The notes beneath the pieces were generated by a model. It was not told the DNA's origin, made no database searches, and was given only the letters and a program-made list of their open reading frames with translations. The translations under genes were made by a program, and so were the position numbers. This document shows positions 11,501 through 33,243 of a stretch of DNA of 43,855 nt, one piece after another. This stretch comes from a virus, in the IMG/VR virus record IMGVR_UViG_3300013093_000087, positions 1-43,855 of that record; one strand, written 5' to 3'. Position 1 is the first letter of the stretch. Each line of letters starts with the position of its first letter.

Positions 11501-11734
11501 AACTTAGCTCGTATCAATCACGATACTGAAGAAATGCAAAATATGCGAGAAAAGTTAGTTGACGTCGGTAATAAACACACAGGTCTTGGTATCAATGCTG
11601 GTACAGTTTCTGAAATACTTTCAAGGTCAAAAACTGAATTTGATAAAGCTACTAAAGAGATGGTGCATGGTGTCAGATACTCTAAAAAGATGCTAAAAGA
11701 GATTAAATCTGACTCTGCTGAATACGAAAATTGA
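5504..11734 (+). CDS. Giant internal virion protein with metallopeptidase motif (2076 aa)
   Basis: This is the largest gene in the window and the last of the plus-strand virion genes. The N-terminus (about 1-350) is mixed, with Gly/Ala segments. Residues about 370-720 are Gln/Pro-rich and low in complexity. A zinc-peptidase-like signature HEPGH lies at about 1030-1034 within HVLLHEPGHAV, and VHEFAAEALSNP about 40 residues downstream could provide the third ligand. The region from about 1540 to 1960 (RDLGSILASTAFTYTLGFNL, membrane-like segments and an acidic DDDDDD run) matches what I know of large polyvalent-protein domain 38 (LPD38) in phage ejection proteins. A role in genome delivery is likely; peptidase activity is untested. 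Confidence 0.7.
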   Translation: MPKVTIPGVGVVNYPDSMSDKDIMSHAQGLQTKANTPLLDPKDLPAKELFKGAFSRGIEGLKGTAFDLIPALAGSVTGHDQYAQEQMKEYQDRMAAAEAENPTAYNKLSDIKGIGDLPGFVAETAGMLAPDALSFIAGTGVGTTLGKYAARKGAEKVLEKSALEYAAKKGLTGEAADTAVEAFKNRAIGQNVISNATEHGASIGTNLGLTSTSMAINVPDVLQSVYQDTGELHPGIALTVGPIVGALDTIFPAHIVKQLGSTGKKILAKELLDKSTVVPTTWKKAFGKELLKDVSMESLTEGTQQALQVAASQMAGDKKKFFDPNNIDSIIMASIQGAIGAGSMGAIPSAIQAKGIKAQSEQDAAAQKAQAALDAQKAQPPAPPLALGYTSPPAMQQVETDQSKRPIEVSPGITYDPTTGLHTIQQQEEQPGRTVNPLMNMPQPNPELVGQGAPNVELNPAQQEMFDTTAFEKRQPSIDSALAGPPEAPTEFSSKLDAETLKGTGLKPQSGFFKQLLDKDMSKPKQQAAVADILINVRKNPNLSDSTKNAVEAVAMQAFGALAKQQEMFTPLGNVRKDASYAGVQPTVQSKPISTTNRTGIQVPNESVPNQPAGGVTAPQQRRVAPVTEPTAQSAVRETVQPSALSQEDQDALQAELQAEMAGQQPTQQMGTTPQAATTPAQESIVRTNQGIPQVAGVAQSQPVAKTSATQTLAPALIPHSAKDILKQAEQEKARREKLAEEGNPEFQELGRAGTGEFDVSKGYMGFAKEDVKNIDDSIAVTDLLRGATLTPIAKAAKTYFGKMPRLVDNLINVAFDIAFNPPRFRVEGESNREAKFFQGMNGASARLAADWIHKNLSPDTDKQFRDFIRGFERARDTTNDTQLMQLIMSGVSGTKAKVTDETIQSYIDAMSADIANARNREARRAVSGKTKKILESSVITLAHPLHPAVIAAIHNGDLQSALKLMAASSDPFIAKTAARFAAVNLNTKINVVDGLIDESGRPVPGLFHPETNTILIDSITGMNGHVLLHEPGHAVTSHVLDNPNHPLTRQLQQVLDKIKDSLDTAYGATDVHEFAAEALSNPQFVGKLQSINPNGGVHTAWDMFARAVINFFRRMVGLESRPLASAYDEVDRILSGIISPSPEYRDAGALYAPTIAKDQQIFTGVNKLVRSVPVLNENQKAHLADGIKRAGKLTRSGIFSMLPTHALGEVAESVFPGLGMKFHNLINDRSGYQNDLNNKTDAVVTEAKAAIKAKPEQQKTFNAIANESTVYEVDPTKPMSEYKDPEDIKVWKDLNSRYNKLDKVWKDLYVTMRNAYKEMYEEVKKSINERIEETALDAGTKKRVRDAIMAKLSEKGMLDPYFALGREGEHWLAFNYKDKNGQMQRTQEAYKTDYERAARMEELQKLGATEVEPYEKVSAMNYRRAPTGSFMNSILQIMDTNGVPEKAVEETMRLFLATLPETAFAQSLQKRKGTPGYMDDTIGVFERKMRNTAHQVANMRFNPQLTNVVDEMQQKTVAAGVAGKGNQLEKDYVTEFEKHLKYVLNPTKRDLGSILASTAFTYTLGFNLSSAVVNMANVPMIVAPYLKGQYASYNVAGAIGNASKIFIGSGTNAEMEVLGANGRTTKTKVMPSILNYAKDSAIGRKYAKLIEIANKRGQLNRSQLYELINGDTRTGLLSKFNAMSGWMFHHGERMNREVTMIASFDLEMQKLAKDIKSGKLTQEEAETQAANNAVYTAELTNGSIAAASAPRVAQNPIGKLLFMYKRYGVSMYYMMFKTAKEAIDVNLPADQRKAAWRQLGGIVGMSALMAGAQGIPLFGLASMVYALFCDDDDDDLDNVTRKGLGEFLYKGPLEYFTNLSIASRITLNDLIVRDTKGGTSATTFTQQIGQAMGGPAFGIMDRIQRGYSKIAEGHLERGIEDMLPSALSNPLKGYRYATEGTNTLRGDPITGDINAWNVAAQAFGFAPADYTRQIELNAKEKGVDKYVVQKVSKLKQRYNLARINHDTEEMQNMREKLVDVGNKHTGLGINAGTVSEILSRSKTEFDKATKEMVHGVRYSKKMLKEIKSDSAEYEN

Positions 11735-12095: not shown

Positions 12096-14883
12096 CCATG
12101 AATCCTTCACATTGAACGTGTAGTACATCTAAAGAAGGCAGGCTCATACGAGTACCTTTTCCCATACGTTTCTTATCAATCTTAGCTTTGGTTCGTCCAC
12201 GCTTAAGTGAATCCACAAGCCCTTCATAATTAACTTGTCGTTTGACACACCATTCCCGCAATGGATTAAGGTATATAAAGAGCAACTTAATATCATATTC
12301 ATATCGTGCAATATAAGTCATTCTTGGGCTTGCATCAGGGATAATCAAATGGTCTACGTCATCTTGTTTGAGACTACGTGAATCTTGGGTACTTTGAATG
12401 CGTAAAGTATTATTCCAATTCTCAGCCAAGAAGTTAGTTAAGGTTGTTTCAGCATCAACATCCATAAATTTGACCTGTTCTTTTACCCCCTTAACCACTT
12501 CAGCTGCCCATTGAACAATAGGCTTAATATCATAATCTATCAATCCAGCCCGTTTTGCTATCATTAAACCCATGATGGCATCTGCTACCAATACAGAGTG
12601 AAATCGATCCGCTGGGCTAAAACCACACATCTTATCGAGTGTGTGCTGAGTAGAAGTATATAGTTTTTTGATTCCCTCAATATCATTCATTACATACTGA
12701 AGATAAGGTATATAGGCATGTCCATAGTTATTTAATAACTTGATGCTAAGTTCATCGGTATCAATCTTACTCAAACCATCTACGGGACGGGCACGGTGCT
12801 CTAGTACCCGCATAGCCTCACCTTTTGGCATAGCCTTGTAGCTACTAATTTTTTCCATGATTGAAGCATTTCCAGTACTAACACCCATTTGTTTCCATAG
12901 TTCTCCACGATGCCGTTCTGAGTTTGCTGAGGCAGTCATACGATTCCTTTGTGAACCGGAAGTATATTGGTATAGAAAGTCGCTACAGTCTTTAGCTGTT
13001 GAGTTAGTTAACTCATCCATAGGTAGAAACAAGTTGTTATAAATCTCAGCACGAAGCATCTTAGATGCTGTTGTATCAGATTCTTTTAATACTATCTTAG
13101 TTGGGTCGCCCCAAATGCTAGCACCTGCAAATAGGGCTGTAGTCTTACCAATACCCGACTCAGGACTAAAGATATGCAGTAAAGCCGCATTTACAGGGGT
13201 AAAATCGGTAAATATAGAACCAAACGCTAAGCCGATTACAAATTGATGCATCTCCATTCCGGGACGTTTATAGAATGACATAGCTTCTTTCCATGCTTCC
13301 ATAGTTCCTTTGGTTTGAAATGCATGAAATAAATGCCCTGTAGATGATGAAGGTGGATTATGGTCTATGCGGTCTGCACGGATCTCTTTATCCCCTAAAA
13401 CAAATGCTTCATACTTTTCATCAACCCAACCAAACTGTCTTCTAGCTGTGTCTGCTTTATTATTAAATTGCATGTGATTTACCCAAGTTGTTAAATATGA
13501 CATCAGTTCGTCAGTTTTTACTAGTGCTACACCTTTTGTGGATAAGTATTTTCTAAGTTCATCTTTTGATGTAACTGCTGATAAAGGAATAGTAAACTCC
13601 CGCACCCCATCTTTTGGAAGGTGTAGTCGAACGACTACCGCTTCACCTACTTCCGAATCATCCAATCGCCGAGTAAGGTATATATCATTGTGATATATCA
13701 TCACCTCAATTTCGTCTTCTTGTTTAATTACCCGCTTAAAAATACCACCGTTCTTACCCCGAAAGTAAGGATCAGGATACTTTGGTATAACGTATGTTTG
13801 TGTATGACCTTGGTCTATCTGAAATGGAACATCTTCAACAATATTATCTTCATCATTAGCTTCTAATACTTCACGACCTAATACGATTGGGGATTTTATA
13901 ACCCCTTTATTTGGGCATCCATTACAGCCTTTGGGGTTATATTCTTCAAACTTAGCGCAGGTATATGGACCACCTTTGATACCACGTACCTTACGATCCG
14001 CAAACTGGGGGCTATATTCTGGGTGGTGCTCGGATATTTTGGTTACTGCTTTATCAGCATCAATACAAAATTTGGCGATACTTAGCCCTGCTCTCCACAT
14101 AGGTTCGGGCATTGTGGCTTGCTCTTTTATTATATGTGCAAGTTGCTGGCAACCTTCGTTCTTCATGGTTTTTATTAAAATCGTCTTAAACCGATTCGTG
14201 TAATTACCAAGCAGTGCTTTGGTTACGTCGTCCATCTCGCCACGAGGTATATAGGCCCGTGGTGCAAGAATAGGATCACCTATAACATCTTTTAGTGTGT
14301 CAAGCTCATATGAGCCAGGTGAGCTACCAATTAAACAAACGTCTCTAGGTTCTTGATTTTTATAGTTTAAAGTCCCCGGAACCCGTAAGATTCGTACTGA
14401 ATCAGCCGTCACTACTGGATCAGCAAATAGGTCATTGTCGTCGCACATGCTCTTTAGCTTCTCAGCCATAGGTAACCATGTTTCACGTGAAACAGCTTCA
14501 GTCAAAGCCCAATAGGCATGAATACCCCCACCGGAATTAACCATTGCTGGTCTTGGCATTTTAGTAGCTTTGCAAAAAGCGATTAATGCTTTTGTAGCAT
14601 CGACTTGCGTTTCGTAAGGTTTACCTTCACCACAATCGAGATCAACAAATAAAGACCTTAACTGCTTAACGTTAGCAGTCTTCCTTGATTTGCCATCCTC
14701 AAAAGTAGCCAATGCATAGTATGCATCGTAGCCTTCTTTCGCTAAATTCTCAGCAACTCCCACCGCATCTTCAAGCTTTTTGAAAAACTTTTGGATAGGT
14801 TTATCCGAGTCTTTCTTTAACCCAACTATGCAGTAGTATCCTTCGTCGCCAAGGACTTGCTGTAAAAATTCCAAATTGTTCAT
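12010..14883 (-). CDS. Primase-helicase (RepB/AEP-like primase plus DUF927-like helicase)
   Basis: The 957-residue protein probably primes and unwinds phage DNA. The N-terminal third resembles archaeo-eukaryotic-type (RepB-like) primases: VDLDCGEG (80-87) gives the acidic metal ligands, SGGGIHAYW (117-125) the His motif, and VRILRVPGTLNYK (163-175) the last conserved block. A Cys set at C309, C320 and C323 may bind zinc. The C-terminal half is a superfamily 3/DUF927-like helicase with Walker A SGIGKTT (576-582) and Walker B LFLPMDE (618-624). The ribosome binding site AGGTGG is paired in a hairpin (14887-14902). It follows the SSB gene after 173 nt. Confidence 0.85.
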   Translation of the reverse strand: MNNLEFLQQVLGDEGYYCIVGLKKDSDKPIQKFFKKLEDAVGVAENLAKEGYDAYYALATFEDGKSRKTANVKQLRSLFVDLDCGEGKPYETQVDATKALIAFCKATKMPRPAMVNSGGGIHAYWALTEAVSRETWLPMAEKLKSMCDDNDLFADPVVTADSVRILRVPGTLNYKNQEPRDVCLIGSSPGSYELDTLKDVIGDPILAPRAYIPRGEMDDVTKALLGNYTNRFKTILIKTMKNEGCQQLAHIIKEQATMPEPMWRAGLSIAKFCIDADKAVTKISEHHPEYSPQFADRKVRGIKGGPYTCAKFEEYNPKGCNGCPNKGVIKSPIVLGREVLEANDEDNIVEDVPFQIDQGHTQTYVIPKYPDPYFRGKNGGIFKRVIKQEDEIEVMIYHNDIYLTRRLDDSEVGEAVVVRLHLPKDGVREFTIPLSAVTSKDELRKYLSTKGVALVKTDELMSYLTTWVNHMQFNNKADTARRQFGWVDEKYEAFVLGDKEIRADRIDHNPPSSSTGHLFHAFQTKGTMEAWKEAMSFYKRPGMEMHQFVIGLAFGSIFTDFTPVNAALLHIFSPESGIGKTTALFAGASIWGDPTKIVLKESDTTASKMLRAEIYNNLFLPMDELTNSTAKDCSDFLYQYTSGSQRNRMTASANSERHRGELWKQMGVSTGNASIMEKISSYKAMPKGEAMRVLEHRARPVDGLSKIDTDELSIKLLNNYGHAYIPYLQYVMNDIEGIKKLYTSTQHTLDKMCGFSPADRFHSVLVADAIMGLMIAKRAGLIDYDIKPIVQWAAEVVKGVKEQVKFMDVDAETTLTNFLAENWNNTLRIQSTQDSRSLKQDDVDHLIIPDASPRMTYIARYEYDIKLLFIYLNPLREWCVKRQVNYEGLVDSLKRGRTKAKIDKKRMGKGTRMSLPSLDVLHVQCEGFMDDDREEELKALAAHKAALEGDEVRASLP
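13622..13639. repeat. Stem-loop repeat copy (divergent, in primase-helicase)
   Basis: TGTAGTC-GAAC-GACTACC on the plus strand gives a 6-bp GTAGTC/GACTAC stem. It has the same stem core and 4-base loop as the copies at 26-35 kb. It encodes VVVRL on the minus strand. As an isolated copy it could be coincidence. Confidence 0.4.
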
Positions 14884-20171: not shown

Positions 20172-20470
20172 TTAACTCCATGATACTTTTCAACCCACCT
20201 AGCAAAGTCCTTGCCTTTGCCAATACTAATCCAAGCTTTCTTTAATGTTTCATCAGGTATTGGTTTAGATTGAACAGCACAACGTTTCTCTACCTTTTTT
20301 GTAGCTTCATAAGTAGCGGCACTTCTACATACGTACCATGCACTTTTCCATGCTTGCCACATAGGATCAGAGTTAATGTCTTCATTTTCGTTGTCAATCC
20401 AATGGTTATTCATAGCCCATCGTAAAAAAGACGCTAAACACTTAGCATCGGGTGAACCTTTAGCGTTCAT
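20168..20470 (-). CDS. Hypothetical Trp-rich protein (100 aa)
   Basis: A basic 100-residue protein with ten Trp or Cys residues (FLRWAMNNHWIDNE, MWQAWKSAWYVCRSAA). It starts with ATGAAC directly after the repeated junction GGCACAAGAGAA. I do not recognise a domain. It links the EPVAW cassette upstream with the VDFD cassette downstream. Confidence 0.65.
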   Translation of the reverse strand: MNAKGSPDAKCLASFLRWAMNNHWIDNENEDINSDPMWQAWKSAWYVCRSAATYEATKKVEKRCAVQSKPIPDETLKKAWISIGKGKDFARWVEKYHGVK

Positions 20471-20700
20471 TTCTCTTGTGCCTTTCTTAGTATTGCTCTA
20501 GCAAATTCAAGTTCAGGCTGTCCACTCCAATCCATCTCCGCCCATAAATCTTGTATTTCCTCATCTGTTAGTGTCTTTGCTGGATGGGTGTAGAGTGGAA
20601 TGTTGTAATCAGAACAATCACCACCTTTACCTGATTTCTTAAATTTATCTGTAATAACATCATCATCTTTACACATCCACGCTACTGGTTCATTGTTCAT
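20467..20700 (-). CDS. EPVAW/YTHPAK family small protein, paralog 3
   Basis: A 77-residue member of a phage family of unknown function. MNNEPVAWM opens the protein, IPLYTHPAKTLTDEEI (about 34-49) is the central motif, and FARAILRKAQEK closes it. The variable part between the ends contains CKDDD and GGDC. Two further copies lie at 20873-21130 and 21127-21366. The 3' end encodes KAQEK and carries the start of the next gene in an ATGA overlap. Confidence 0.75.
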   Translation of the reverse strand: MNNEPVAWMCKDDDVITDKFKKSGKGGDCSDYNIPLYTHPAKTLTDEEIQDLWAEMDWSGQPELEFARAILRKAQEK

Positions 20701-20876
20701 TTCTCTTGTGCCTTTAAAAATTTAAAAGTTAAGCCAAAACACTTGTAAACATTGATGTAACCATTTCTTTCGCTAAACAATGGCTGATGGTGCTTTGTTT
20801 GTTTTACCCATAAGCCATAGCCAAAAAATCTAAACCAAAATCCATGACCAATATTGCAGTAATAAAAAGGTTTCAT
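20697..20876 (-). CDS. Small aromatic protein with PLFSERNG motif (59 aa)
   Basis: MKPFYYCNIGHGFWFRFFGY leads into LWVK, then PLFSERNGY (32-40), a motif I know from small phage proteins of unknown role. It sits between two EPVAW paralogs and is not related to them, yet it ends in the same KAQEK encoded by the same junction GGCACAAGAGAAATGA. The strong aromatic content suggests membrane association or a compact beta fold. Confidence 0.65.
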   Translation of the reverse strand: MKPFYYCNIGHGFWFRFFGYGLWVKQTKHHQPLFSERNGYINVYKCFGLTFKFLKAQEK

Positions 20877-21130
20877 TTCTCTTGTGCCTTTCTTAGTATT
20901 TCGTATGCAAACTCAGTAAATTTAATTTCATCTACCTGACCATTTTTATCTAATTCGTAATACTTTCCAGCCGCCCATACTGCATGAATTTCTCCTATGC
21001 TAAGTTTCTTTGCTGGATGGGTGTAGAGTGGAATACAAGGTTGTTTAATATCAAAAGATATGTTTAATGCTGCACCCAAGCTAGTAAAAAGCACACCATC
21101 TACCATCCATGCTACTGGTTCATTGTTCAT
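20873..21130 (-). CDS. EPVAW/YTHPAK family small protein, paralog 2
   Basis: An 85-residue paralog with MNNEPVAWM, IPLYTHPAKKLSIGEI and EILRKAQEK. The middle (VDGVLFTSLGAALNISFDI) differs from the other copies, so only the ends and the YTHPAK motif are conserved. ATGA overlaps are present on both sides. Confidence 0.75.
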   Translation of the reverse strand: MNNEPVAWMVDGVLFTSLGAALNISFDIKQPCIPLYTHPAKKLSIGEIHAVWAAGKYYELDKNGQVDEIKFTEFAYEILRKAQEK

Positions 21131-21366
21131 TTATCCTGTGCCTTTCTTAGTATTGCTCTAGCAAAAGCCTTTTGTTTCATCCAAGGTGTGTTGCCATGCG
21201 AATGACTCCAGCAATAATCTATTTCCTCATCTGTTAGTGTCTTTGCTGGATTGGTATAGAGTGGAATCCATGTGCCTTCAAGATGGTCAATCACTTGTAA
21301 ATTAATTAACTTTGGCTTTCGGTCTTCCAAGCCCAACAACATCCATGCTACTGGTTCATTGTTCAT
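21127..21366 (-). CDS. EPVAW/YTHPAK family small protein, paralog 1
   Basis: A 79-residue paralog with MNNEPVAWM, IPLYTNPAKTLTDEEI and FARAILRKAQDK. It is first in the cassette after the DNA polymerase gene. Its start overlaps the 13-codon remnant ORF at 21356-21397. The function of the family is unknown. Confidence 0.75.
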   Translation of the reverse strand: MNNEPVAWMLLGLEDRKPKLINLQVIDHLEGTWIPLYTNPAKTLTDEEIDYCWSHSHGNTPWMKQKAFARAILRKAQDK

Positions 21367-24070: not shown

Positions 24071-24254
24071 ACTTTCTCTTTTTAATTGTAGCTATACCAT
24101 CATCTTCTTGTTTGATTCGGACTTCCAGCATAGCATCTGCCATCTTGTATGCGTTGCTCGCTACCTCTTCTATAACATCATCACCAATACCCCGCATGAC
24201 AATGCCACATAAAGTAAACATAGCAAAACAATCTCTTAGATCTTCGTCGTTCAC
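24054..24254 (-). CDS. Small phage protein with YKMADAML motif (66 aa)
   Basis: A GTG start at 24254 in a GTGA overlap, with GAAGGGGG upstream. CFAMFTLCGIVMRGIGDDVI, then ASNAYKMADAMLEVR, fits a widespread phage family in which a hydrophobic 'AMxGLL' helix precedes 'A(Y/F)xMADAML'. The role is unknown. The C-terminus is basic (KKRKYVRKD). Confidence 0.65.
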   Translation of the reverse strand: MNDEDLRDCFAMFTLCGIVMRGIGDDVIEEVASNAYKMADAMLEVRIKQEDDGIATIKKRKYVRKD

Positions 24255-24544
24255 TTGACCCCCTTCATTTTAATTTTTTTGATTCGTTCGGCTTTACGTA
24301 GGTCATGACTATGCAACTTCTTACCTACTGATTTCGGTACTTCACCAGCTTTCTCTGCTACCTTTGCCGCCTTCTTACGGTTAACAACCGCACCACTAGA
24401 TAATTCAAACATATGCTTAGAACCTTTTGCCTTCTTACCTTCTTTAGCAATAAGTTCATCGTGTGAATATGCCTTGTTAGGTGCTTCAACAATCTTGCCT
24501 GATTTCTCTTTGATTGCAGGTACTTTTACTGTTAGCTTCGCCAT
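24251..24544 (-). CDS. Basic protein of unknown function (97 aa)
   Basis: Lys-rich throughout (MAKLTVKVPAIKEKSGKIVE; C-terminus RIKKIKMKGVK), suggesting nucleic-acid contact. It lies 1 nt after the PPK2 gene. No domain is recognised. Confidence 0.65.
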   Translation of the reverse strand: MAKLTVKVPAIKEKSGKIVEAPNKAYSHDELIAKEGKKAKGSKHMFELSSGAVVNRKKAAKVAEKAGEVPKSVGKKLHSHDLRKAERIKKIKMKGVK

Positions 24545-24545
24545 G

Positions 24546-25310
24546 TTATATTCCTTTTAAAATGTTGGGGTTAATCTCCCCTATATTATCCAAGTTCCTG
24601 CCTGCATAGTCATTATTTAGTAGAACATGTTGCATTGTGGCAATCCTTGCACTCCTCTTGCAGTCTGACTTAACTACTATCCAAGGGTTATCCTCTGATG
24701 TGTATTTAAGTATGCTCCGTTCTGCATGGGTATATTCATCCCACTTATCCTGACTTACCCTATCAATCGGGGATAACTTACCTAATTTCAAAGGGTTGCT
24801 TTCCCTTTCTTTAAACCGCCGTTCCTGCTCTTTTTTACTAACGTCTAACCAAAACTTAATAAGGCATATGCCACTTTCTTGCCACATCTCTTCCATTGTG
24901 TAACATTGGCTATAGAAAATAGCAACCTCGTCGGTTGTGGCAAAACCCATGACTCTCTCAACAGTTGCTCGGTTATACCAAGACCTATCCCATAGGGTAA
25001 CTTCTCCTGTACGTGGTAGTTCCTTGATAAACCGTTGCCAATACCATTGCATACGTTCTTGCTCGGTAGGTTTGTCCAATGCTACGACTCGGGCGGACTT
25101 TGGATTCATATGTTCCATAAATCGTTTAATCGTACCGCCCTTGCCTGCACCATCTCGTCCCTCAAAAACCACCATATGCTTCTGACCAGTATCTTTGACG
25201 TGGTGTTGCCACTTCAATAGTTCTACTTGCAAAGCATACTTCTTAGTATCAAATTCCTTTTGGGACATAAGATTCCTAGGTGATTCCTCGGTTTGATCAA
25301 TCGTGCTCAC
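24546..25310 (-). CDS. ppk2: Polyphosphate kinase 2 family (PPK2) enzyme
   Basis: PPK2 enzymes transfer phosphate between polyphosphate and nucleotides. All family signatures are visible: Walker A FEGRDGAGKGGTIKR (49-63), Walker B LWDRSWYNRATVERVMGF (106-123), and the lid RFKERESNP (165-173) followed by GKLSPIDRVSQDKWDEY (177-193). The length of 254 fits a one-domain PPK2. The lid has LGKLSP where WKLSP is more usual. The start is GTG 25310 in an overlap with the upstream gene, with AGAGGG before it; ATG at residue 15 is an alternative. Direction and nucleotide preference cannot be read from sequence. It is an unusual phage gene. Confidence 0.9.
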   Translation of the reverse strand: MSTIDQTEESPRNLMSQKEFDTKKYALQVELLKWQHHVKDTGQKHMVVFEGRDGAGKGGTIKRFMEHMNPKSARVVALDKPTEQERMQWYWQRFIKELPRTGEVTLWDRSWYNRATVERVMGFATTDEVAIFYSQCYTMEEMWQESGICLIKFWLDVSKKEQERRFKERESNPLKLGKLSPIDRVSQDKWDEYTHAERSILKYTSEDNPWIVVKSDCKRSARIATMQHVLLNNDYAGRNLDNIGEINPNILKGI

Positions 25311-25674
25311 TTAGCCCTCTATTAACATTACTCAAAACATCGTCAACGACAGAGCCTTGTCTTATTACGGTGTTATAGATACCAAATACTTTACGGTTCA
25401 TGAACTCTCGTTCCTCTTCGTCTTTATAGTTGAAATGAACATTAGCAGTTTTTGTAAATTCATGTAGCAACGCAGTATCTAAATGTTTATCTACAAACGT
25501 TCGGTTTACTCCGTGCTCATACTTTAACTTATCGAATGCAGGAATAACGTCTTTGTACAAATATAAAGTTTTATTAACATCATCTACACTCGCCATTGAT
25601 GGATCTATAGCTAGCATCAGATATAACAGACGCATTATGATCCAATCCTTTTCACTCATATCTTCAATCTTCAT
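25297..25674 (-). CDS. Hypothetical protein (125 aa) upstream of PPK2
   Basis: I prefer ATG 25674, with AGGGAG 6 nt upstream, over a GTG at 25689. The product begins MKIEDMSEKDWIIMRLLYLM and is mainly helical, with acidic stretches (KDEEEREFMNRKVFGIYNTV). It is coupled to PPK2 by a 14-nt overlap. I recognise no domain. Coupling makes a shared role with PPK2 possible but not shown. Confidence 0.65.
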   Translation of the reverse strand: MKIEDMSEKDWIIMRLLYLMLAIDPSMASVDDVNKTLYLYKDVIPAFDKLKYEHGVNRTFVDKHLDTALLHEFTKTANVHFNYKDEEEREFMNRKVFGIYNTVIRQGSVVDDVLSNVNRGLSEHD

Positions 25675-26251
25675 GTACGCTCCCTTCACCCCAAGTCTCG
25701 TTCATAATCTCAGCGTAGTTAAACTTTTCACCTACACAATCTTTAATGTAAACAGTTTCTACACTAACATCTTTGAGTGTGTCGTTGTAAAGATAAACAA
25801 ACTTGGGTATTTGAACTAACCCTCTAGCAAACTGCATGCCTAAAGGTGTGACTCGCCATAGTCCGCTAGATCTTTTCTCTGAATCTTCACGAACTAACTT
25901 TTCATTACCTTCATCGTCTATCTCTACCTTGACTGACATATCTAAGTTCATAGGTTGAATTAAATGCCACCACTTCAATGTAGCAAATGTATAAGTTGCT
26001 ACCACAGACTTAGGTGCTACTCTTGGCATATCAATCCAGTTCTCACCATGATTACTTGCCATCCATAGTAATGACTTCACCATAGATTCTGATACTTTGT
26101 AACGATATACCTTACCCCATCTGTCGCAACAAGGGCAATGCCCTCCCTTGTCACGTATCGTCAAGTCCCAGTTGTTTCTTGCTTGCTCAAGCGTTGTTTG
26201 TGCAGGGGGTGGTCTAAACCGTAATGCTTTGATTTGATCAAGCGTTATCAT
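25664..26251 (-). CDS. Zinc-finger phage protein (195 aa)
   Basis: GHCPCCDRWGKVYRYKVSES (37-56) gives two or three cysteines that may bind zinc with other residues. SGLWRVTPLGMQFARGLVQI, then PKFVYLYND (about 128-156), resembles a winged-helix end seen in a phage family of unknown role. It starts in a TAATG overlap with the HTH gene upstream. A DNA-binding role is plausible, but no regulator family is clear. Confidence 0.65.
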   Translation of the reverse strand: MITLDQIKALRFRPPPAQTTLEQARNNWDLTIRDKGGHCPCCDRWGKVYRYKVSESMVKSLLWMASNHGENWIDMPRVAPKSVVATYTFATLKWWHLIQPMNLDMSVKVEIDDEGNEKLVREDSEKRSSGLWRVTPLGMQFARGLVQIPKFVYLYNDTLKDVSVETVYIKDCVGEKFNYAEIMNETWGEGSVHED

Positions 26252-26604
26252 TATCTTTTTCCTTCCAAGTATTTAATTACCGCCTTAGCGTCAAGCAATG
26301 CTGATCTAGAAAATTCAAGTTCATCTTGCAAGGCATCATGCTTACCCCGCCAATCTAAGCACCATTGATGATACTTAGCGATTTCGGCTTCAAGTCCTTT
26401 GATGATCTTGTTAACGTCTTGCTTCACAGTGGTAGTCGGCTGACTACCTGCTTTCTTAACGTGTTTAGTTTTAACATAGTTACGTAGGGCATATGTACGT
26501 TGTACAGTTACACCTAACCTTGCCGCCATATCACTAACGGATATGTTTGGTTCTACTTTTAAAAGTTCAATCGATTTTGCTACTAGTGTTTGTTTCTTGC
26601 TCAT
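26251..26604 (-). CDS. HTH plus coiled-coil protein (117 aa)
   Basis: Residues 8-36 (AKSIELLKVEPNISVSDMAA, then GVTVQRTYALRN) form a winged-helix/HTH domain of the kind that reads 'PxxSxxxxAxxLGVxxxxxY'. A linker GSQPTTT follows at about 53-59 and is encoded by a copy of the dispersed stem-loop (26431-26448). Residues 65-115 are a predicted coiled coil. ACAGGAGAAT precedes the ATG. It could bind DNA as a dimer and is a candidate regulator of the early region. Confidence 0.65.
   Translation of the reverse strand: MSKKQTLVAKSIELLKVEPNISVSDMAARLGVTVQRTYALRNYVKTKHVKKAGSQPTTTVKQDVNKIIKGLEAEIAKYHQWCLDWRGKHDALQDELEFSRSALLDAKAVIKYLEGKR
26431..26448. repeat. Stem-loop repeat copy, GGCT loop
   Basis: GGTAGTC-GGCT-GACTACC has a perfect 7-bp stem. 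It lies inside the HTH/coiled-coil gene and encodes SQPTT in the linker between the two domains. Confidence 0.9.
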
Positions 26605-26899
26605 TTAATTCTCCTGTTGTTAATAAAGATGGAAGATACTTAACGTCATCTTCCCTTACTACTAAAGCCACACCACCGCAGTCAATAATCTTTTTAAGAT
26701 TAAGTTCTTGCAATGTAGTTAGCTTTCCTTTTCCAGCTTTAGTTTCAATGCCGAAAAATAGACCTTTATGGCAGACTAAAAAATCAGGTGCACCTTGCTT
26801 ACCGTAACCGCCTGTAACTGGCATCACGTAATAAGCACCAAGCCCATCAAGGACTTGGCGCACTTGTTTTTTAACTTTCCCCTCGGGGGTCAGTGCCAT
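26567..26899 (-). CDS. VRR-NUC domain nuclease
   Basis: I place the start at ATG 26899, with AAGGAGAG upstream; the open frame extends 5' but has no signal. The 110-residue protein shows the PD-(D/E)XK pattern of VRR-NUC proteins: GAPDFLVCHKGLFFGIETKA (38-57) gives D...ExK, after an N-terminal helix (VKKQVRQVLDGLGAYYVMPV). VRR-NUC nucleases act on branched DNA, and phage copies probably resolve replication or recombination structures. The 3' end overlaps the HTH gene by 38 nt. Confidence 0.85.
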   Translation of the reverse strand: MALTPEGKVKKQVRQVLDGLGAYYVMPVTGGYGKQGAPDFLVCHKGLFFGIETKAGKGKLTTLQELNLKKIIDCGGVALVVREDDVKYLPSLLTTGELNEQETNTSSKID

Positions 26900-27293
26900 C
26901 GTTCTCTCCTTTGAAAACCCAATAAATACTACTGTTAATACGACGACCAACGTTCTTGATTTCTTCGTTCTGCTTTGTGTGATCAAGTAACATTAAGACT
27001 GCAAGTTTATCTTGCACCCATTTTGGTAATTCGTCAACACTATCATAAGACATTTTTAACTCAGGTGCAAAGTTTTCTAATAAATCATAACAATCTGTTT
27101 GCACACTACTATCGGTATTAACCTTGATTCGATAGATAGGTTCTTCCTTTATCATTTCAAGGATTTGCATAAGTTCTTCTTCGGGTGCTGATAACATCTT
27201 TTTTCCGTGTTCGTCCACAGCATTAGCGTGAAAGCCCAAGTCATAAAAGATGTGTATATACATCGACTTCTCTCGTTTAGCGGCATCGTACAT
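26871..27293 (-). CDS. Hypothetical acidic protein (140 aa)
   Basis: MYDAAKREKSMYIHIFYDLG starts the protein; a second ATG at residue 11 is possible, but GAGG lies 5 nt before the first. It is acidic in the middle and ends in a polar tail that overlaps the VRR-NUC gene. A compact alpha/beta fold is likely; no family is recognised. Confidence 0.65.
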   Translation of the reverse strand: MYDAAKREKSMYIHIFYDLGFHANAVDEHGKKMLSAPEEELMQILEMIKEEPIYRIKVNTDSSVQTDCYDLLENFAPELKMSYDSVDELPKWVQDKLAVLMLLDHTKQNEEIKNVGRRINSSIYWVFKGENDGTDPRGES

Positions 27294-27294
27294 A

Positions 27295-28275
27295 TTAACC
27301 TCGTTCTATATAGTAAGTAACTTCATCAATCTTCTGACCAACTTTGTCTACATATTGCCCATCGCTTAAGATACTAAGGACAGATATGCTACCTACGATG
27401 TCTTCAGGGAGACTTGACATAGGGTAGGTAGTCGGCTGACTACTCATCTCAGGTCTTTGCGAATTTCTACGCACGTCATCTACCTCTTGTACATCAACAT
27501 ACATATCCTCTCCGACCTTACGGCAACGCACAAATAACATCTGTACCTTACGTACTTCCTCGGCTCTTGCTTCGGCAACGGCTTCCTCTACTTGCTCTGC
27601 CGCTTTTTTAAATGCCTCGGTCTTAAACTGTATACCCAAAGACTTAAGATGTAAAAGTTCTGCCAGTACTTCTTGGTTACTGTTAGTAACTATTCTTGAT
27701 ACATCACGCATCTTGTTCTGTGCTTTGTCATACACAGTAGACACAGATCTATGTACGCTATCATAAAATGCCGTTGCTAGTTCCTTATGGGTATATGGCA
27801 CAAGATATTTACACGCATTTTTTACGGCTTTGTTAGCATCTGCTGACATAATCATATGGTATTGATCTCGGTGCGTATCATACTTATCATTCATGATCTT
27901 GCGACTGTATACACCATAGCTAGGTACTGCCTTGTTACTATCTTTCTTGACTGCATAGTTACGGAAACCCACCCAACCTAAGTCAAATGGAAACTCATCC
28001 ATCACTACACAGAACTCATCAACGATGAAACATCTCCCCTGTACACCTGTCGCAACGACGTGTTGTACTGACGTTACCTCGGCAGGGATTAGCTTAGCAC
28101 TTGGCATACTTTGTTGTAGTGTAGTTAAGAACCCGACCATCTCTTGTGGCACAGGACAATCGCTGTACCAATGAAGCCAGTTACACTCTTTGCTCGTCTG
28201 CTTAGCCCGAGCGACCCTCTCTCGATAGTTATCGTTTGCCAATATTCGCTTAATGTCTACTAGTTTTGCAGTCAT
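27295..28275 (-). CDS. Large unknown protein downstream of the MoxR/vWA module (326 aa)
   Basis: AAGGAGAAT precedes the ATG. The N-terminal 180 residues look alpha/beta (MTAKLVDIKRILANDNYRER; GRCFIVDEFCVVMDEFPFDL). A long helical region at about 190-245 (EEAVAEARAEEVRKVQMLFV) suggests a coiled coil. SSQPTTY near residue 283 is encoded by a stem-loop repeat at 27427-27444. I recognise no family. The uniform direction and tight spacing with the 300-residue protein upstream place it in the same transcription unit. Confidence 0.7.
   Translation of the reverse strand: MTAKLVDIKRILANDNYRERVARAKQTSKECNWLHWYSDCPVPQEMVGFLTTLQQSMPSAKLIPAEVTSVQHVVATGVQGRCFIVDEFCVVMDEFPFDLGWVGFRNYAVKKDSNKAVPSYGVYSRKIMNDKYDTHRDQYHMIMSADANKAVKNACKYLVPYTHKELATAFYDSVHRSVSTVYDKAQNKMRDVSRIVTNSNQEVLAELLHLKSLGIQFKTEAFKKAAEQVEEAVAEARAEEVRKVQMLFVRCRKVGEDMYVDVQEVDDVRRNSQRPEMSSQPTTYPMSSLPEDIVGSISVLSILSDGQYVDKVGQKIDEVTYYIERG
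27427..27444. repeat. Stem-loop repeat copy, GGCT loop
   Basis: GGTAGTC-GGCT-GACTACT has 6 Watson-Crick pairs plus a terminal G-T pair. It lies in the 326-residue gene and encodes SQPTT. Confidence 0.85.
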
Positions 28276-28286
28276 ATTTATTCTCC

Positions 28287-29189
28287 TTAAACCATGTCTA
28301 TTAAATAAAAGTTACCTGTCTTGCGAACCAAATCCCTAAGCATTTTGAATGAATTTGCTTTGGGTTGGAATCGTCCCTGCTCTAATGCATTCATCTCATT
28401 AGCTATACAAACTGCAAATGCCATACGTTTATCGTGTTGTTCATCTTCTAGTAGTCCACGGACTACCTCAGATCCAACTTGTTTAGTCCAATACCAATAA
28501 CTACCACCGCCAGTTAGTGTTTCTGCATATTCATGACGGTTACTATTAAGTGTTTCACCTAGTACAGGAAGAACTATCTGCATCCAATCCCACAGCTCCC
28601 GTACCTTCGGAGCGTAACTCCTGTCAAGATCTTTATCAATCCTTCTCGTTTGCATAGGTAACAGATCACTAACACGCTCGAACCCATCAGGATTTATATC
28701 TTTAAACACTAACGTATTATCTTTAATACTTGTAAATATTTTAGTGTTGTGATCGTAGCTACCTTGTGACTTCGGCAAGTAAAACTCTTTCCAAGTTCCA
28801 TCTTTATTTCTTTGATGAACAAAGTGTTTACCGTTGCTACCCCAATCAAAGCGCATACCTTGTGGTAAGTACCTATCTATAAACTGATAGCGAGATACCG
28901 ATGAACCACCGTTTAGGTTGTTACGTATAGTAATGTAGTCACCATCAGGCTTGCGTTCCCATGTAATCGGACAAACGTTCTGATATGTCCCCTCGGGGTT
29001 ATTACCACCTGCACCCCAGTATGCCCAGTTACCATCCATCAATAGGTACTTGGTATCACTTACTTTGTGTATACGATTCCACCAATACCGACGTTGACCC
29101 AATGGACGAATGTCCTCAGTGCGCTTCCGAATCGGCTTAGTTTCCGCATAATGTTTTGCTACTTGGTCAAACGTATTGAACATTCCCAT
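28287..29189 (-). CDS. Large unknown protein in the MoxR/vWA module (300 aa)
   Basis: I choose ATG 29189 (MGMFNTFDQVAKHYAETKPI), with AGGAGAAG upstream, in a TAATG overlap with the 42-residue membrane protein gene. The protein is rich in Trp, Tyr and Gly, with patterns such as GNWAYWGAGGNNPEGTYQNV and GGGSYWYWTK, suggesting beta structure in the first half. The C-terminal part is helical. I recognise no domain. In comparable phage loci unknown genes often accompany the AAA+/vWA pair, so it may be a substrate or adaptor. Confidence 0.7.
   Translation of the reverse strand: MGMFNTFDQVAKHYAETKPIRKRTEDIRPLGQRRYWWNRIHKVSDTKYLLMDGNWAYWGAGGNNPEGTYQNVCPITWERKPDGDYITIRNNLNGGSSVSRYQFIDRYLPQGMRFDWGSNGKHFVHQRNKDGTWKEFYLPKSQGSYDHNTKIFTSIKDNTLVFKDINPDGFERVSDLLPMQTRRIDKDLDRSYAPKVRELWDWMQIVLPVLGETLNSNRHEYAETLTGGGSYWYWTKQVGSEVVRGLLEDEQHDKRMAFAVCIANEMNALEQGRFQPKANSFKMLRDLVRKTGNFYLIDMV
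28450..28467. repeat. Stem-loop repeat copy, CGTG loop on minus strand
   Basis: On the minus strand GGTAGTC-CGTG-GACTACT has 6 pairs plus a terminal G-T pair. It is in the 300-residue gene and encodes VVRGLL. The stem matches the other copies and the loop differs. Confidence 0.65.
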
Positions 29190-29317
29190 TATTCTTCTCC
29201 TGTTATTAACTTGATTAACATTGTTGCTACATAAATGACAACAGCTACCAATGCAACGGCTACCGCACAAACACTTAAGCCTATTAAGTACCTCGTAAAC
29301 TCGGTAAACATATCCAT
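29189..29317 (-). CDS. Small membrane protein in the MoxR/vWA module (42 aa)
   Basis: MDMFTEFTRYLIGLSVCAVA continues into a hydrophobic stretch to about residue 35 and ends KLITGEE: one membrane helix. It starts directly after the vWA stop, with GAGGAGAAC upstream, and ends in TAATG overlapping the next gene. Its place in the module hints at a membrane anchor, though a small holin-like role cannot be excluded. Confidence 0.6.
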   Translation of the reverse strand: MDMFTEFTRYLIGLSVCAVAVALVAVVIYVATMLIKLITGEE

Positions 29318-30505
29318 TTAGTTCTCCTCAATATGTACAGTCACACCAACATCTGCGTTGGCACTCTTATTACCTTGAATACACCACAACACAGGCACAG
29401 TCCACCGACCCCATGACCCACCCAAATAGCCATCTGTTAACACAACAACACACTCGGGCTTGATGCCATGCTCGTTCATATACATCGGCACACACTCGAC
29501 GTTAGTACCACCGCCCCCTGCAGGCTTGGTAGACTTCACCAAATCATCAAGTTCATCTTGCATATAAACTTCTTCCTTACATACGTCCGTGTCCCAATAC
29601 AACATACGAACCTTGCTCGGCTTAACCTGATCACAGATACCTTTGACCTCTGTTAAGAACTTCATCAGTTCATGCTGACCAATCGAACCCGACGTATCTA
29701 TGGCTATGACAATCTCACCGATTGATTCACTAATGCTTGACGGCATTAACATATCCATACCCACATATCTACGGTTAGGTTTGCGCCATGTAGAGTAGTC
29801 TTTACCTGCACAAGTTGTTGTCACAAAGTCACGTAGTAACTCTTTCCAATCTTTCTTGGTTTGCAATAACTCACTAATATCACGTAACCCACCAGTACCC
29901 ATCTTGCCTGCCATGATTGCGCCTTGCCTTACAGCTTCATCAATATCTTTGGCTAACTCCTCAGCTTCTTCGGCAGATAACGCTTGAGCACCCTCCCAGT
30001 CATGGTCATCGAAACCAGTGCCCTCACCCAAACCTTGACCTTTACCTTTTCCATTACTAGGTGGTAGTAAGTCAAAGACTTGTTTAGAGTCCATGCCTGC
30101 ATACTTGAGATCCATCAGCCCACCATCGGGCATTCGTATCCACCCACTCCTACATGCATCGGTATCTGTTAACTTGTGATTGATTACATAGTCACATGCT
30201 TGGTTGGCCCGTTCATGATCTAAGTCATGCAGATACTTCCATGTAGTCAAGTGTCGATACATCTTGTGATAACACTCATGCAACATTAAGAATCTAAACT
30301 CAGCGTCATTCAAAGAGTCAACAAACTCCCGACCATACTTCTCGTCACGTCCGTTGGTACATGCAGTTGGTAGTCCGTCGACTACTTCTTTGTTGCCAAT
30401 CATGAGCACCCCTGCAAGGGCGACGAACTCTTCCCGACCTACGATGTCAGTCGTAGCCTTCATAAGTCGTTGCTCTGCAGTTAATGGTTTACCTATTGCT
30501 AACAT
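29318..30505 (-). CDS. vWA-domain protein with metallopeptidase-like N-terminus
   Basis: The C-terminal domain has the MIDAS motif DTSGSIG (270-276) followed by TDGY, typical of vWA domains that pair with MoxR AAA+ proteins (DUF2201 / vWA-like type). The N-terminal part has LHECYH (75-80), an HExxH zinc-peptidase-like signature. An acidic linker lies at about 165-195. It is directly downstream of the MoxR ATPase gene. Such pairs act as metal-dependent chaperone or remodelling machines; the phage target is unknown. Binding site AAGGAGAAA. Confidence 0.85.
   Translation of the reverse strand: MLAIGKPLTAEQRLMKATTDIVGREEFVALAGVLMIGNKEVVDGLPTACTNGRDEKYGREFVDSLNDAEFRFLMLHECYHKMYRHLTTWKYLHDLDHERANQACDYVINHKLTDTDACRSGWIRMPDGGLMDLKYAGMDSKQVFDLLPPSNGKGKGQGLGEGTGFDDHDWEGAQALSAEEAEELAKDIDEAVRQGAIMAGKMGTGGLRDISELLQTKKDWKELLRDFVTTTCAGKDYSTWRKPNRRYVGMDMLMPSSISESIGEIVIAIDTSGSIGQHELMKFLTEVKGICDQVKPSKVRMLYWDTDVCKEEVYMQDELDDLVKSTKPAGGGGTNVECVPMYMNEHGIKPECVVVLTDGYLGGSWGRWTVPVLWCIQGNKSANADVGVTVHIEEN
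30369..30386. repeat. Stem-loop repeat copy, CGTC loop
   Basis: GGTAGTC-CGTC-GACTACT has the constant stem and a different loop. It lies in the vWA gene where the protein reads VVDGLP, a region that looks conserved in the protein family, so coding constraint may explain part of it. Confidence 0.6.
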
Positions 30506-30516
30506 AATGTTTCTCC

Positions 30517-31632
30517 TTATTTTTTATCTGCGCTAAACATGAAGTTGTTGTCCATGCACCATTGAGTAAACTTCTTATTACCCATGACCATAGACTGACG
30601 TTGATACTTCGGATTGCGTACCTGCATAGCGAATAGACCTTGTGCTTCTTTATCTAAACGATTGAGGTATTCCATCCAAGGATCAATGAACTCTTTGTTC
30701 ATAGTCGCAAGCGCACGATACACAACCATGACAATGCCTGATGCGGATTGCGGGATCTTGGCAGTTGACGGACTCGTCTTAATATCTTCCTGTCTTGGCA
30801 GTTGATCGACCAGATCAATATAGGCTTCAAGGTCAGCACCACCACGAGCACCGATAGTACCCATGAGATTAGACTTCAATGCGTTCTTGCTCATCTTGTC
30901 CTTAGCCCATAACCAATGACTTGCTAACTCAAGACTGCGTGGTGTCACGAATGACGGACGTTGTGACTTCGGATGATAGATATAAGGGTTACCACCTATA
31001 TCATCGTCAGGCTTCTCGATCTCTTCATAAGATTGAAAGAGTTGTTCACCATGTTCTTTGACCCACATAATCATGGCAGGATTTATTCCTGCGTTGATAG
31101 CAAAGCCCTCGATCCACTCGGTAGCCGTTGGCTTCTTCATACGTATGACTGTGATGCGATTGCGGTGGTGTGGCATAAGTAAGTCACCGACCCCCTCTGT
31201 TCCTAGGTTAGTGGTGGCAAACACGATAGACCCTTCGGGTAACTTCTTAGTACCAAAGGTACGTTCTAACATTACACGCATCATGCCATTCTTGACTGAT
31301 GGATTCGCCTTACCAAACTCATCAATCATTAAGATGATTGGCTTGTCGTGGTGTAGACCCATCTCTTCGTTAGGTACAAAGCGTACAAAGTCCTCGGTAC
31401 TGTCGTCACGCAAGATCTTGGGCAACATCAAATCGCCTAAGTCCTTGGTAGTGCAGTCAAAATAGCAAGGCACGTGAGTTGGTAACTTCTGTGCCAACAC
31501 CTTAAGGATTGAGGATTTACCTGTACCCATGTGACCTTGAACCAAGGTAGTCAGCCGACTACCAGTAGCGAGGATTGAATCGACGCACTCGTCGAGGGAT
31601 TGTGCGAATAACTGCTCTGCTGATTGTTTCAT
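30517..31632 (-). CDS. MoxR-type AAA+ ATPase
   Basis: The 371-residue protein has Walker A GHMGTGKS (33-40), Walker B ILMIDE (100-105) and sensor 1 ATTN (139-142). Arg residues at HHRNR (155-159) could serve as arginine finger. The layout matches MoxR/AAA_5 ATPases that work with vWA partners, and the vWA gene follows after 11 nt. ACAGGAGAAT is the binding site. GSRLTT at 24-29, just before the P-loop strand, is encoded by a stem-loop repeat (31546-31563). Confidence 0.88.
   Translation of the reverse strand: MKQSAEQLFAQSLDECVDSILATGSRLTTLVQGHMGTGKSSILKVLAQKLPTHVPCYFDCTTKDLGDLMLPKILRDDSTEDFVRFVPNEEMGLHHDKPIILMIDEFGKANPSVKNGMMRVMLERTFGTKKLPEGSIVFATTNLGTEGVGDLLMPHHRNRITVIRMKKPTATEWIEGFAINAGINPAMIMWVKEHGEQLFQSYEEIEKPDDDIGGNPYIYHPKSQRPSFVTPRSLELASHWLWAKDKMSKNALKSNLMGTIGARGGADLEAYIDLVDQLPRQEDIKTSPSTAKIPQSASGIVMVVYRALATMNKEFIDPWMEYLNRLDKEAQGLFAMQVRNPKYQRQSMVMGNKKFTQWCMDNNFMFSADKK
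31546..31563. repeat. Stem-loop repeat copy, inverted orientation
   Basis: GGTAGTC-AGCC-GACTACC has a perfect 7-bp stem; the loop is the reverse complement of GGCT. It lies near the 5' end of the MoxR gene, encoding GSRLTT. Confidence 0.9.
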
Positions 31633-31700
31633 GTAATTCTCCTGTTTAAATTGATCGTACTTATTGCCGATTGTTGATTAACGTACCACTCCATAACTTC

Positions 31701-32609
31701 TTACCACGAAAACTCTTTCATTAAAGCGTCGACCTTGCTCTTAGTATCTAAGCGTAGATCATCGTCCTCACGTAGAGCATCGGGTGTAATACCTCGTAAG
31801 GCATTTTCAATCTTTGCTTTGGCTCGTGACATCTTGACATCACCTGTGACATTAAACTTATCTAGCAAGTCCACCATGTCAGCGACGTTTGATACCAGTG
31901 AGTCACGGAATATCTGCTTCTTATTACCTGACAGCTTAGTGCTCATGCTTGATAATGCTTCGTACGTACGCTCCCATATATCCTTGTATGCGTTGTCGAT
32001 ATTCTCCTGATAGAACTGAGCATAAGACTCCTTAAGTTGTTGTTGGGCTTCATTGCCTACATCGACCCGCCAATCACCTACATCGGGTACTGGCGCATAC
32101 TTAACCGAAAACCTAAACTTACTGAGCACATCTTCCTTGCTCGGATAGTCCTCTAAGTTAAACATTGTGCCTAGCTTGACCCTTGCTCGGTTGATCATGT
32201 TGTCCCAGTCTGCGATGCAGTCGGCTACCAGTCGGTAGAACTCCTGTTCCATCTCGGTAATGTTCTTCTGATAGTCAAAGTACATAGCGGTTGTGAGTAG
32301 GCGCAGTCCACTATCTGACCAAGGCATTGTGGCAAAGTAGTGGTGTGTTCGTGCGTTGCCTGCATGCTTGCCGATAGCTTCAAAACGTGGCTCACTCGCA
32401 AACAATATCTTGTTATAGTTGCCTGCCCTTGTAGTCGTTTGCTTCTGTATGTCGATTTCGGCTGAGACACTCTTGTCGTACTTGCGACCTGTCCATGTAC
32501 TAATGTTTAACTCCACTAGCATTGCGCTACTACTAATGGTTGGTGCTGTGATACTGGTTGGTGCTGAGGTAGTCGGCTGACTACTTGCTACTGAGTTACT
32601 TGTTTCCAT
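31701..32609 (-). CDS. DUF3150-like partner of the MoxR/vWA pair (302 aa)
   Basis: The N-terminal 30 residues are Ser/Thr-rich and include SSQPTTS, encoded by a stem-loop repeat. The body has STWTGRKYDKSVSAEI (37-52), RAGNYNKIL, then MPWSDSGLRLL (about 95-105) and the block FRFSVKYAPVPDVGDWRVDV. This pattern is known to me from phage proteins encoded beside AAA+/vWA genes and often labelled DUF3150-like. The mainly helical C-terminal half could be an adaptor. ACAGGAGAAT and the promoter at 32667-32695 lie upstream, so it may be the first gene of a subunit operon. Confidence 0.7.
   Translation of the reverse strand: METSNSVASSQPTTSAPTSITAPTISSSAMLVELNISTWTGRKYDKSVSAEIDIQKQTTTRAGNYNKILFASEPRFEAIGKHAGNARTHHYFATMPWSDSGLRLLTTAMYFDYQKNITEMEQEFYRLVADCIADWDNMINRARVKLGTMFNLEDYPSKEDVLSKFRFSVKYAPVPDVGDWRVDVGNEAQQQLKESYAQFYQENIDNAYKDIWERTYEALSSMSTKLSGNKKQIFRDSLVSNVADMVDLLDKFNVTGDVKMSRAKAKIENALRGITPDALREDDDLRLDTKSKVDALMKEFSW
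32568..32585. repeat. Stem-loop repeat copy, GGCT loop
   Basis: GGTAGTC-GGCT-GACTACT, 25-42 nt downstream of the start of the DUF3150-like gene, encoding SQPTT in its disordered N-terminus. Confidence 0.88.
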
Positions 32610-32666
32610 TTTAATTCTCCTGTTGAACTACGTTGATGTTTACTACGAATTACCACCTTATACTAC

Positions 32667-32695
32667 AGTATACCACAATATGTTAATGAATGCAA
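32667..32695 (-). promoter_or_regulatory. Sigma70-like promoter for the MoxR/vWA module
   Basis: On the minus strand TTGCAT (32695-32690), a 17-bp spacer and TATACT (32672-32667), about 58 nt upstream of the DUF3150-like start. The -35 matches 4 of 6 and the -10 5 of 6 consensus bases. Confidence 0.7.
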
Positions 32696-32710
32696 GTTTT
32701 CTAGCCATGT

Positions 32711-32863
32711 TTATGTACCTGTTTTAAGCCCACCCATTCGAGTGCGTGGTATCACAATGATGATCTTTTCTTCATCCATTGACTGCAGGGTTACGTCGTG
32801 GTCTGTCCAACACATGACGCAATAGGTTCGTTTGCCTATCCGTTTGATCTGCCCTGTGTTCAC
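32711..32863 (-). CDS. Hypothetical small protein (50 aa)
   Basis: I prefer GTG 32863 (VNTGQIKRIGKRTYCVMCWT) because it forms a GTGA overlap with the preceding stop. ATG 32923 or 32899 would overlap the upstream gene by 64 or 40 nt. CVMC could bind metal. The end is hydrophobic, then basic (IIIVIPRTRMGGL). Confidence 0.5.
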   Translation of the reverse strand: MNTGQIKRIGKRTYCVMCWTDHDVTLQSMDEEKIIIVIPRTRMGGLKTGT

Positions 32864-33243
32864 TTGTATGCCCCGATGATCGTCGAAACCAGTGCCCATA
32901 ACATTAGCAACGGTACACCACAAATGAGCATGCCAATGATCATATCCCTCAAGAACTCATAGGCTAACTGTGCGTCTGACTTGAACTTTGTGATTGAGCA
33001 TGCGTACTCGGCATCCCTAAACGCTTCGGATACTGTGCGGTGTGTCTTACTGCTGTGCACAATAACGGCAGGGTCTATATCACCAAAGTATTGATTTATC
33101 CTACGCTGTGTAACATCTAACGGTGTAGGGTTGCGCCACTTGACCTTATCGGTTTTTGGATCAAACACATATGGGTTCTTTCTTGGTAGTCGGCTGACTA
33201 CCTTCGGGGTTGCCACTACTGGTTGTACTTTAGTTACTTTCAT
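32860..33243 (-). CDS. Hypothetical protein with C-terminal membrane helix (127 aa)
   Basis: The basic N-terminus (MKVTKVQPVVATPKVVSRLP) contains VVSRLP encoded by a stem-loop repeat at 33185-33202. The middle has DVTQRRINQYFGDID. Residues about 100-125 (MIIGMLICGVPLLMLWALVS) form one membrane helix. It overlaps its upstream neighbour by 4 nt. It may be a membrane-anchored early protein; no family is recognised. Confidence 0.65.
   Translation of the reverse strand: MKVTKVQPVVATPKVVSRLPRKNPYVFDPKTDKVKWRNPTPLDVTQRRINQYFGDIDPAVIVHSSKTHRTVSEAFRDAEYACSITKFKSDAQLAYEFLRDMIIGMLICGVPLLMLWALVSTIIGAYK
33185..33202. repeat. Stem-loop repeat copy, GGCT loop
   Basis: GGTAGTC-GGCT-GACTACC with a perfect stem, near the 5' end of the 127-residue gene. 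It is in a different reading frame from the SQPTT copies and encodes VVSRLP. Confidence 0.9.

Follow-up and report, generated by a model that had tools for sequence, protein, structure and literature searches.

Does a polyphosphate kinase 2 (PPK2) gene found on a virus contig belong to the phage, and what would the phage gain from it? The gene in question lies in IMG/VR virus record IMGVR_UViG_3300013093_000087, classed as linear, the whole of which (43,855 nucleotides) was analysed and is called the window here. We consider it fairly probable, from sequence comparisons, that the class I PPK2 encoded by this gene is of bacterial origin, capable of catalysis and adapted to the phage, and that it is kept as an accessory function which supplies nucleoside triphosphates from host polyphosphate. 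As an enzyme the protein is ordinary, and what is uncommon is where it occurs; the new part is the phage-only clade to which it belongs, in which a glycine occupies the lid.

The original prediction had described a phage-encoded PPK2 of 254 residues, and both the extent of the reading frame and the family assignment were confirmed (Table 1). The protein matches the Pfam family PF03976 with an E-value of 4.1e-82, scoring 275.6 bits where the cut-off is 22.3 and covering positions 3-223 of the 229 in the profile. Its score for the NCBIfam PPK2 equivalog TIGR03707, 304.5 bits, also exceeds the required 301.8. Its best solved relatives are the class I PPK2 structures of Francisella (E ~3e-80). The predicted fold, from a model of moderate confidence (predicted local distance difference test score, pLDDT, 74), best matches the Francisella and Sinorhizobium class I structures, with ~50% identity to those of Francisella. 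The N-terminus STIDQTEExPRNL is conserved in most relatives, which supports the GTG start at 25310. The GC content of the gene (0.42) is similar to that of the neighbouring genes.

Next, we compared the active site with that of the Francisella enzyme, using the catalytic and polyphosphate-binding residues given in PMC4748334. In the alignment, Francisella D62, K66, H76, D117 and R118 correspond to D53, K57, H67, D108 and R109 of the window PPK2, and R174, R178, K184, K228 and R232 correspond to R165, R169, K175, K218 and R222. Among the mapped sites the sole altered residue is K229, which is replaced conservatively by Arg219. The Walker A sequence GRDGAGKGG, the DRSWYN motif and the lid are all present, as had been predicted. 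The residue directly after the Walker B RSxY is Asn in class I, Gly in class II and Glu in class III enzymes (PMC11641546). As this residue is Asn113 in the window PPK2, it carries the mark of class I and not those of the other two classes, and the same Asn is kept in 22 of the 23 PPK2s of the phage clade described below. The tree agrees with this placement: the window PPK2 groups with FtPPK2 and TIGR03707-type sequences, apart from the class II branch that holds PA3455. Class I PPK2s phosphorylate nucleoside diphosphates, and some are very broad, accepting even deoxythymidine diphosphate (PMC8776046). The two nucleotide routes that were originally proposed can thus be ranked: because the residue after Walker B is the class I Asn, recharging of nucleoside diphosphates is favoured, and the production of nucleotides from AMP or GMP is less likely.

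The lid was where the window PPK2 departed from its bacterial relatives. Its sequence is PLKLGKLS, as against PLKQWKLS in Francisella, and the replacement, which had been picked out in the original prediction as LGKLSP for WKLSP, proved to be a constant feature of the phage clade. In an alignment of all collected PPK2 domains, Gly occupies this position in 23/23 phage-clade sequences and in 0/118 bacterial class I domains, where the residue is Trp in 116, Phe in one and Tyr in one. The window PPK2 therefore lacks the aromatic lid (Trp, Phe or Tyr) of bacterial-type class I enzymes; this yardstick is empirical and not published as defining PPK2, so that lacking it marks a variant and leaves membership of the family unaffected. 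Two alignment columns separate the phage clade from bacterial class I at 80% conservation on each side, and only the lid Gly is fully fixed in the phages. Gly177 stands two residues past the polyphosphate-contacting lysine, and two chains of the Francisella structure show disorder in the part of the lid around this position (PMC4748334). The glycine would plausibly loosen the lid near this lysine, and it may alter the rate or the substrate range of the enzyme. We tentatively extend this to the idea that the change from Trp to Gly is adaptive and alters catalysis (faster turnover, a broader range of deoxynucleotides or a fixed reaction direction), which would give the phages a dedicated polyphosphate-driven nucleotide supply. 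As a single fixed lid residue separates the phage clade from its bacterial relatives, the question could be tested by one residue swap, and lid variants could serve in nucleotide regeneration in vitro.

The check originally proposed for this gene, a phylogeny against the bacterial PPK2 classes and other phage PPK2s, was carried out with an alignment query that recovered 37 PPK2 loci from IMG/VR. In a tree of 80 sequences, the 17 phage PPK2s with the Gly lid form one clade with support of 100/100 and a long stem, beside Burkholderiales class I sequences. The side of the tree on which this clade falls holds the GTDB order of Sulfurisoma, which we take to be Burkholderiales. The closest cellular relatives of the window PPK2 are Burkholderiales class I enzymes (L177-L206), which reach 59% identity to it across residues 12-250; all those sampled have the lid Trp, unlike the phage clade, which stands apart on its long stem. 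The placement of L121, which has a long branch, is unsure. The bacterial loci compared were best matches, from a sampling that is broad for Pseudomonadota (~800 genomes searched, 59 loci read) and thin in other groups, and within the sequences so sampled the window PPK2 belongs to a class I clade that is confined to phages and has a glycine lid. The clade is under strong purifying selection: pairwise ratios of nonsynonymous to synonymous substitution rates are 0.03-0.11, several pairs being saturated and giving no value.

Some other candidates for phage PPK2s were set aside. Four IMG/VR loci with a Trp lid (L116 and L118-L120) fall at scattered places among the PPK2s of bacteria and probably represent host DNA. 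The PPK2 of Moraxella phage Mcat6 sits in an unannotated stretch, probably host flank, and the second PPK2 domain of Pseudomonas phage Y15 has zero tree distance to PA3455 and is likely host DNA.

The gene could still have been bacterial DNA joined to a phage contig, and the original prediction had named this as what would overturn it. We observed, however, that the independent contig L002 keeps the same gene order around PPK2 at 99.1-99.5% DNA identity, and misassembly, like an origin in host DNA, is thus rejected. A further contig, L001, is 99.99% identical to the window and was excluded as independent evidence. The plus strand of the window carries terminase, portal, tail and ejection genes. 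PPK2 lies on the minus strand inside a same-strand replication cluster with an SNF2-type helicase, a family A DNA polymerase, a PD-(D/E)XK nuclease and a primase-like protein. With terminase, portal and DNA polymerase genes in the window, and bacterial relatives of its PPK2, this is a host-derived metabolic gene in a real virus genome and a candidate auxiliary metabolic gene. The predicted location in an early operon holds in part, as far as membership of the replication cluster is concerned.

These data fit a model in which an ancient transfer from a Burkholderiales-like bacterium brought PPK2 into the phages, a group of which has kept it under selection as an accessory gene. During replication of the phage genome, host polyphosphate would serve as the phosphate source, the phosphate being passed to nucleoside diphosphates and probably to deoxynucleoside diphosphates too, and the resulting triphosphates would feed DNA and RNA synthesis. 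If the enzyme works in this manner, the phages would tap an energy and phosphate store of the host independently of continued host metabolism. Some points weigh against this model. Class I PPK2s can also work in the direction of polyphosphate synthesis, as the enzyme of C. glutamicum does (PMC8776046). Moreover, most phages with the 97-residue gene that neighbours PPK2 show no PPK2 nearby (64/80 best loci, some on short contigs), and therefore the benefit of PPK2 must be conditional.

What the phage mainly gains could instead be the depletion of host polyphosphate, which acts as a storage and stress polymer, rather than the nucleotides produced. The same PPK2 reaction consumes polyphosphate, and, according to work cited in PMC2435150, polyphosphate activates the breakdown of ribosomal proteins by Lon. 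The same paper also cites reports that phages P1 and fd need polyphosphate for growth, so that its removal could harm a phage, and an exopolyphosphatase would be the more direct tool; we regard this explanation as unlikely. Rather less credit is given to the proposal that the Gly lid has converted PPK2 to another activity, such as specificity for mono- or deoxynucleotides, the use of another phosphate donor or a role other than catalysis. It would account for a glycine that is fixed in the phage clade and absent from the bacterial domains, but the catalytic and polyphosphate-contacting residues are all kept apart from the Lys-to-Arg change, as is the class I Asn in nearly the whole clade. Least probable, by a little, is that within the infected cell PPK2 works in the opposite direction and makes polyphosphate from nucleoside triphosphates, because these phages need it for growth, as P1 and fd are reported to do: some class I enzymes favour synthesis (that of C. 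glutamicum, and P. aeruginosa PPK2B with ATP regeneration), but most of those characterised favour nucleotide phosphorylation (PMC8776046), and the reverse reaction would be a costly drain on nucleoside triphosphates during replication. We retain nucleotide supply from host polyphosphate as the favoured role.

Of the known systems, the PPK2 of Francisella tularensis (class I; 4YEG, 5LL0, 5LLB), the best PDB match in both sequence and fold, shares with the window enzyme the Walker A motif, DRSWYN, the lid arginines and the polyphosphate-channel residues. It differs in that the window enzyme is phage-encoded and has Gly177 for W186 and Arg219 for K229. The finding of PPK2 in a phage is less new than had been supposed. 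Polyphosphate kinases on viral contigs (ppk1 and ppk2) were reported earlier (PMC13188868, citing Li et al. 2025 Water Res) and interpreted as aiding polyphosphate accumulation; the portion of that paper available to us does not describe a phage-only clade or a lid change. PPK2s are also found in huge-phage records of 635-735 kb (LR745206, LR756501, LR756502). These resemble the window PPK2 in being phage-encoded and having the class I Asn, but they have an aromatic lid, are 37-41% identical to it and occupy a separate branch of the tree. Our literature search found no paper on the enzymology of a phage-encoded PPK2 and no description of a phage-only class I PPK2 clade with a fixed glycine lid.

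Table 1. Positions in the window of the PPK2 gene, its motifs and the adjoining reading frames (ORF, open reading frame)
Feature	Position	Strand	Remarks
PPK2, class I, 254 residues plus stop	24546..25310	(-)	GTG start at 25310, stop 24546-24548
Walker A, residues 51-59, GRDGAGKGG	25134..25160	(-)	D53 and K57 equal Francisella D62 and K66; roles from PMC4748334
Walker B / class motif, residues 108-113, DRSWYN	24972..24989	(-)	Asn113 marks class I
Lid segment, residues 173-180, PLKLGKLS	24771..24794	(-)	Gly177 at 24780-24782 replaces an aromatic residue (Francisella W186)
Upstream ORF overlapping the PPK2 start	25297..25689	(-)	130 residues from GTG, 125 from ATG
97-residue lysine-rich protein, phrog_839-like domain	24251..24544	(-)	begins 1 nucleotide past the PPK2 stop

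We then considered the two neighbours of PPK2 (Table 1). The 125-residue gene that was thought to be directly coupled to PPK2 does overlap its start, but this ORF and the coupling are present only in near-identical phages. It was therefore rejected as a functional partner and is probably incidental. The gene on the other side is found beside PPK2 in nearly all loci of the clade, the exceptions being L114, a contig fragment, and L121. It lies downstream of PPK2 in one phage type and ~0.3-0.8 kb upstream in another, and in the first scan it adjoins PPK2, in two gene orders, at all eight of the loci that were more distant. The family of this 97-residue protein is widespread in phages (166 IMG/VR loci in one scan; L012-L089). 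Its structural model (pLDDT 82) resembles many uncharacterised phage proteins in predicted fold; the structure search gave no useful PDB match for the model, and the alignment profile of the protein matched no PDB sequence.

PPK2 is present in the fetched stretch at only 16/80 of the best loci of the 97-residue gene, and the slot itself is variable. Among phages of the type that has a YqaJ-like gene, six carry PPK2 behind a 62-residue ORF, and in most others a short unrelated ORF (55-63 residues) stands at that place. The 97-residue protein was thus rejected as an obligate partner, and a shared location rather than a shared function is the better reading of the association. As most loci of this gene have no PPK2 nearby and the slot often holds another ORF, PPK2 looks like optional accessory cargo at a variable site beside a common phage gene.

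The window shows a few other features. The palindrome GGTAGTCnnnnGACTACC occurs in 12 copies (at most two mismatches) as against 0.05 expected by chance, 11 of them within 26431-35469 and one at 13622-13639. Several copies lie just within the 5' ends of minus-strand genes, and the array looks like a set of operators or other protein-binding sites. Ahead of the minus-strand cluster, an inverted repeat at 34246-34407 has arms of 45 nucleotides, 87% complementary, with a spacing of 72 nucleotides. An AAA ATPase gene adjoins one for a DUF2201 metallopeptidase/VWA protein (29318-31632), forming a MoxR-like pair, and relatives of both are found in L010. A large polyvalent protein of 2076 residues, which has an LPD39 domain and resembles DarB, is encoded at 5504-11734. 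Finally, three related small ORFs of 77, 85 and 79 residues (mutual identity 40-48%) with shared DNA blocks lie within 20467-21366; this spot varies, since L002 has a single related ORF at the same site.
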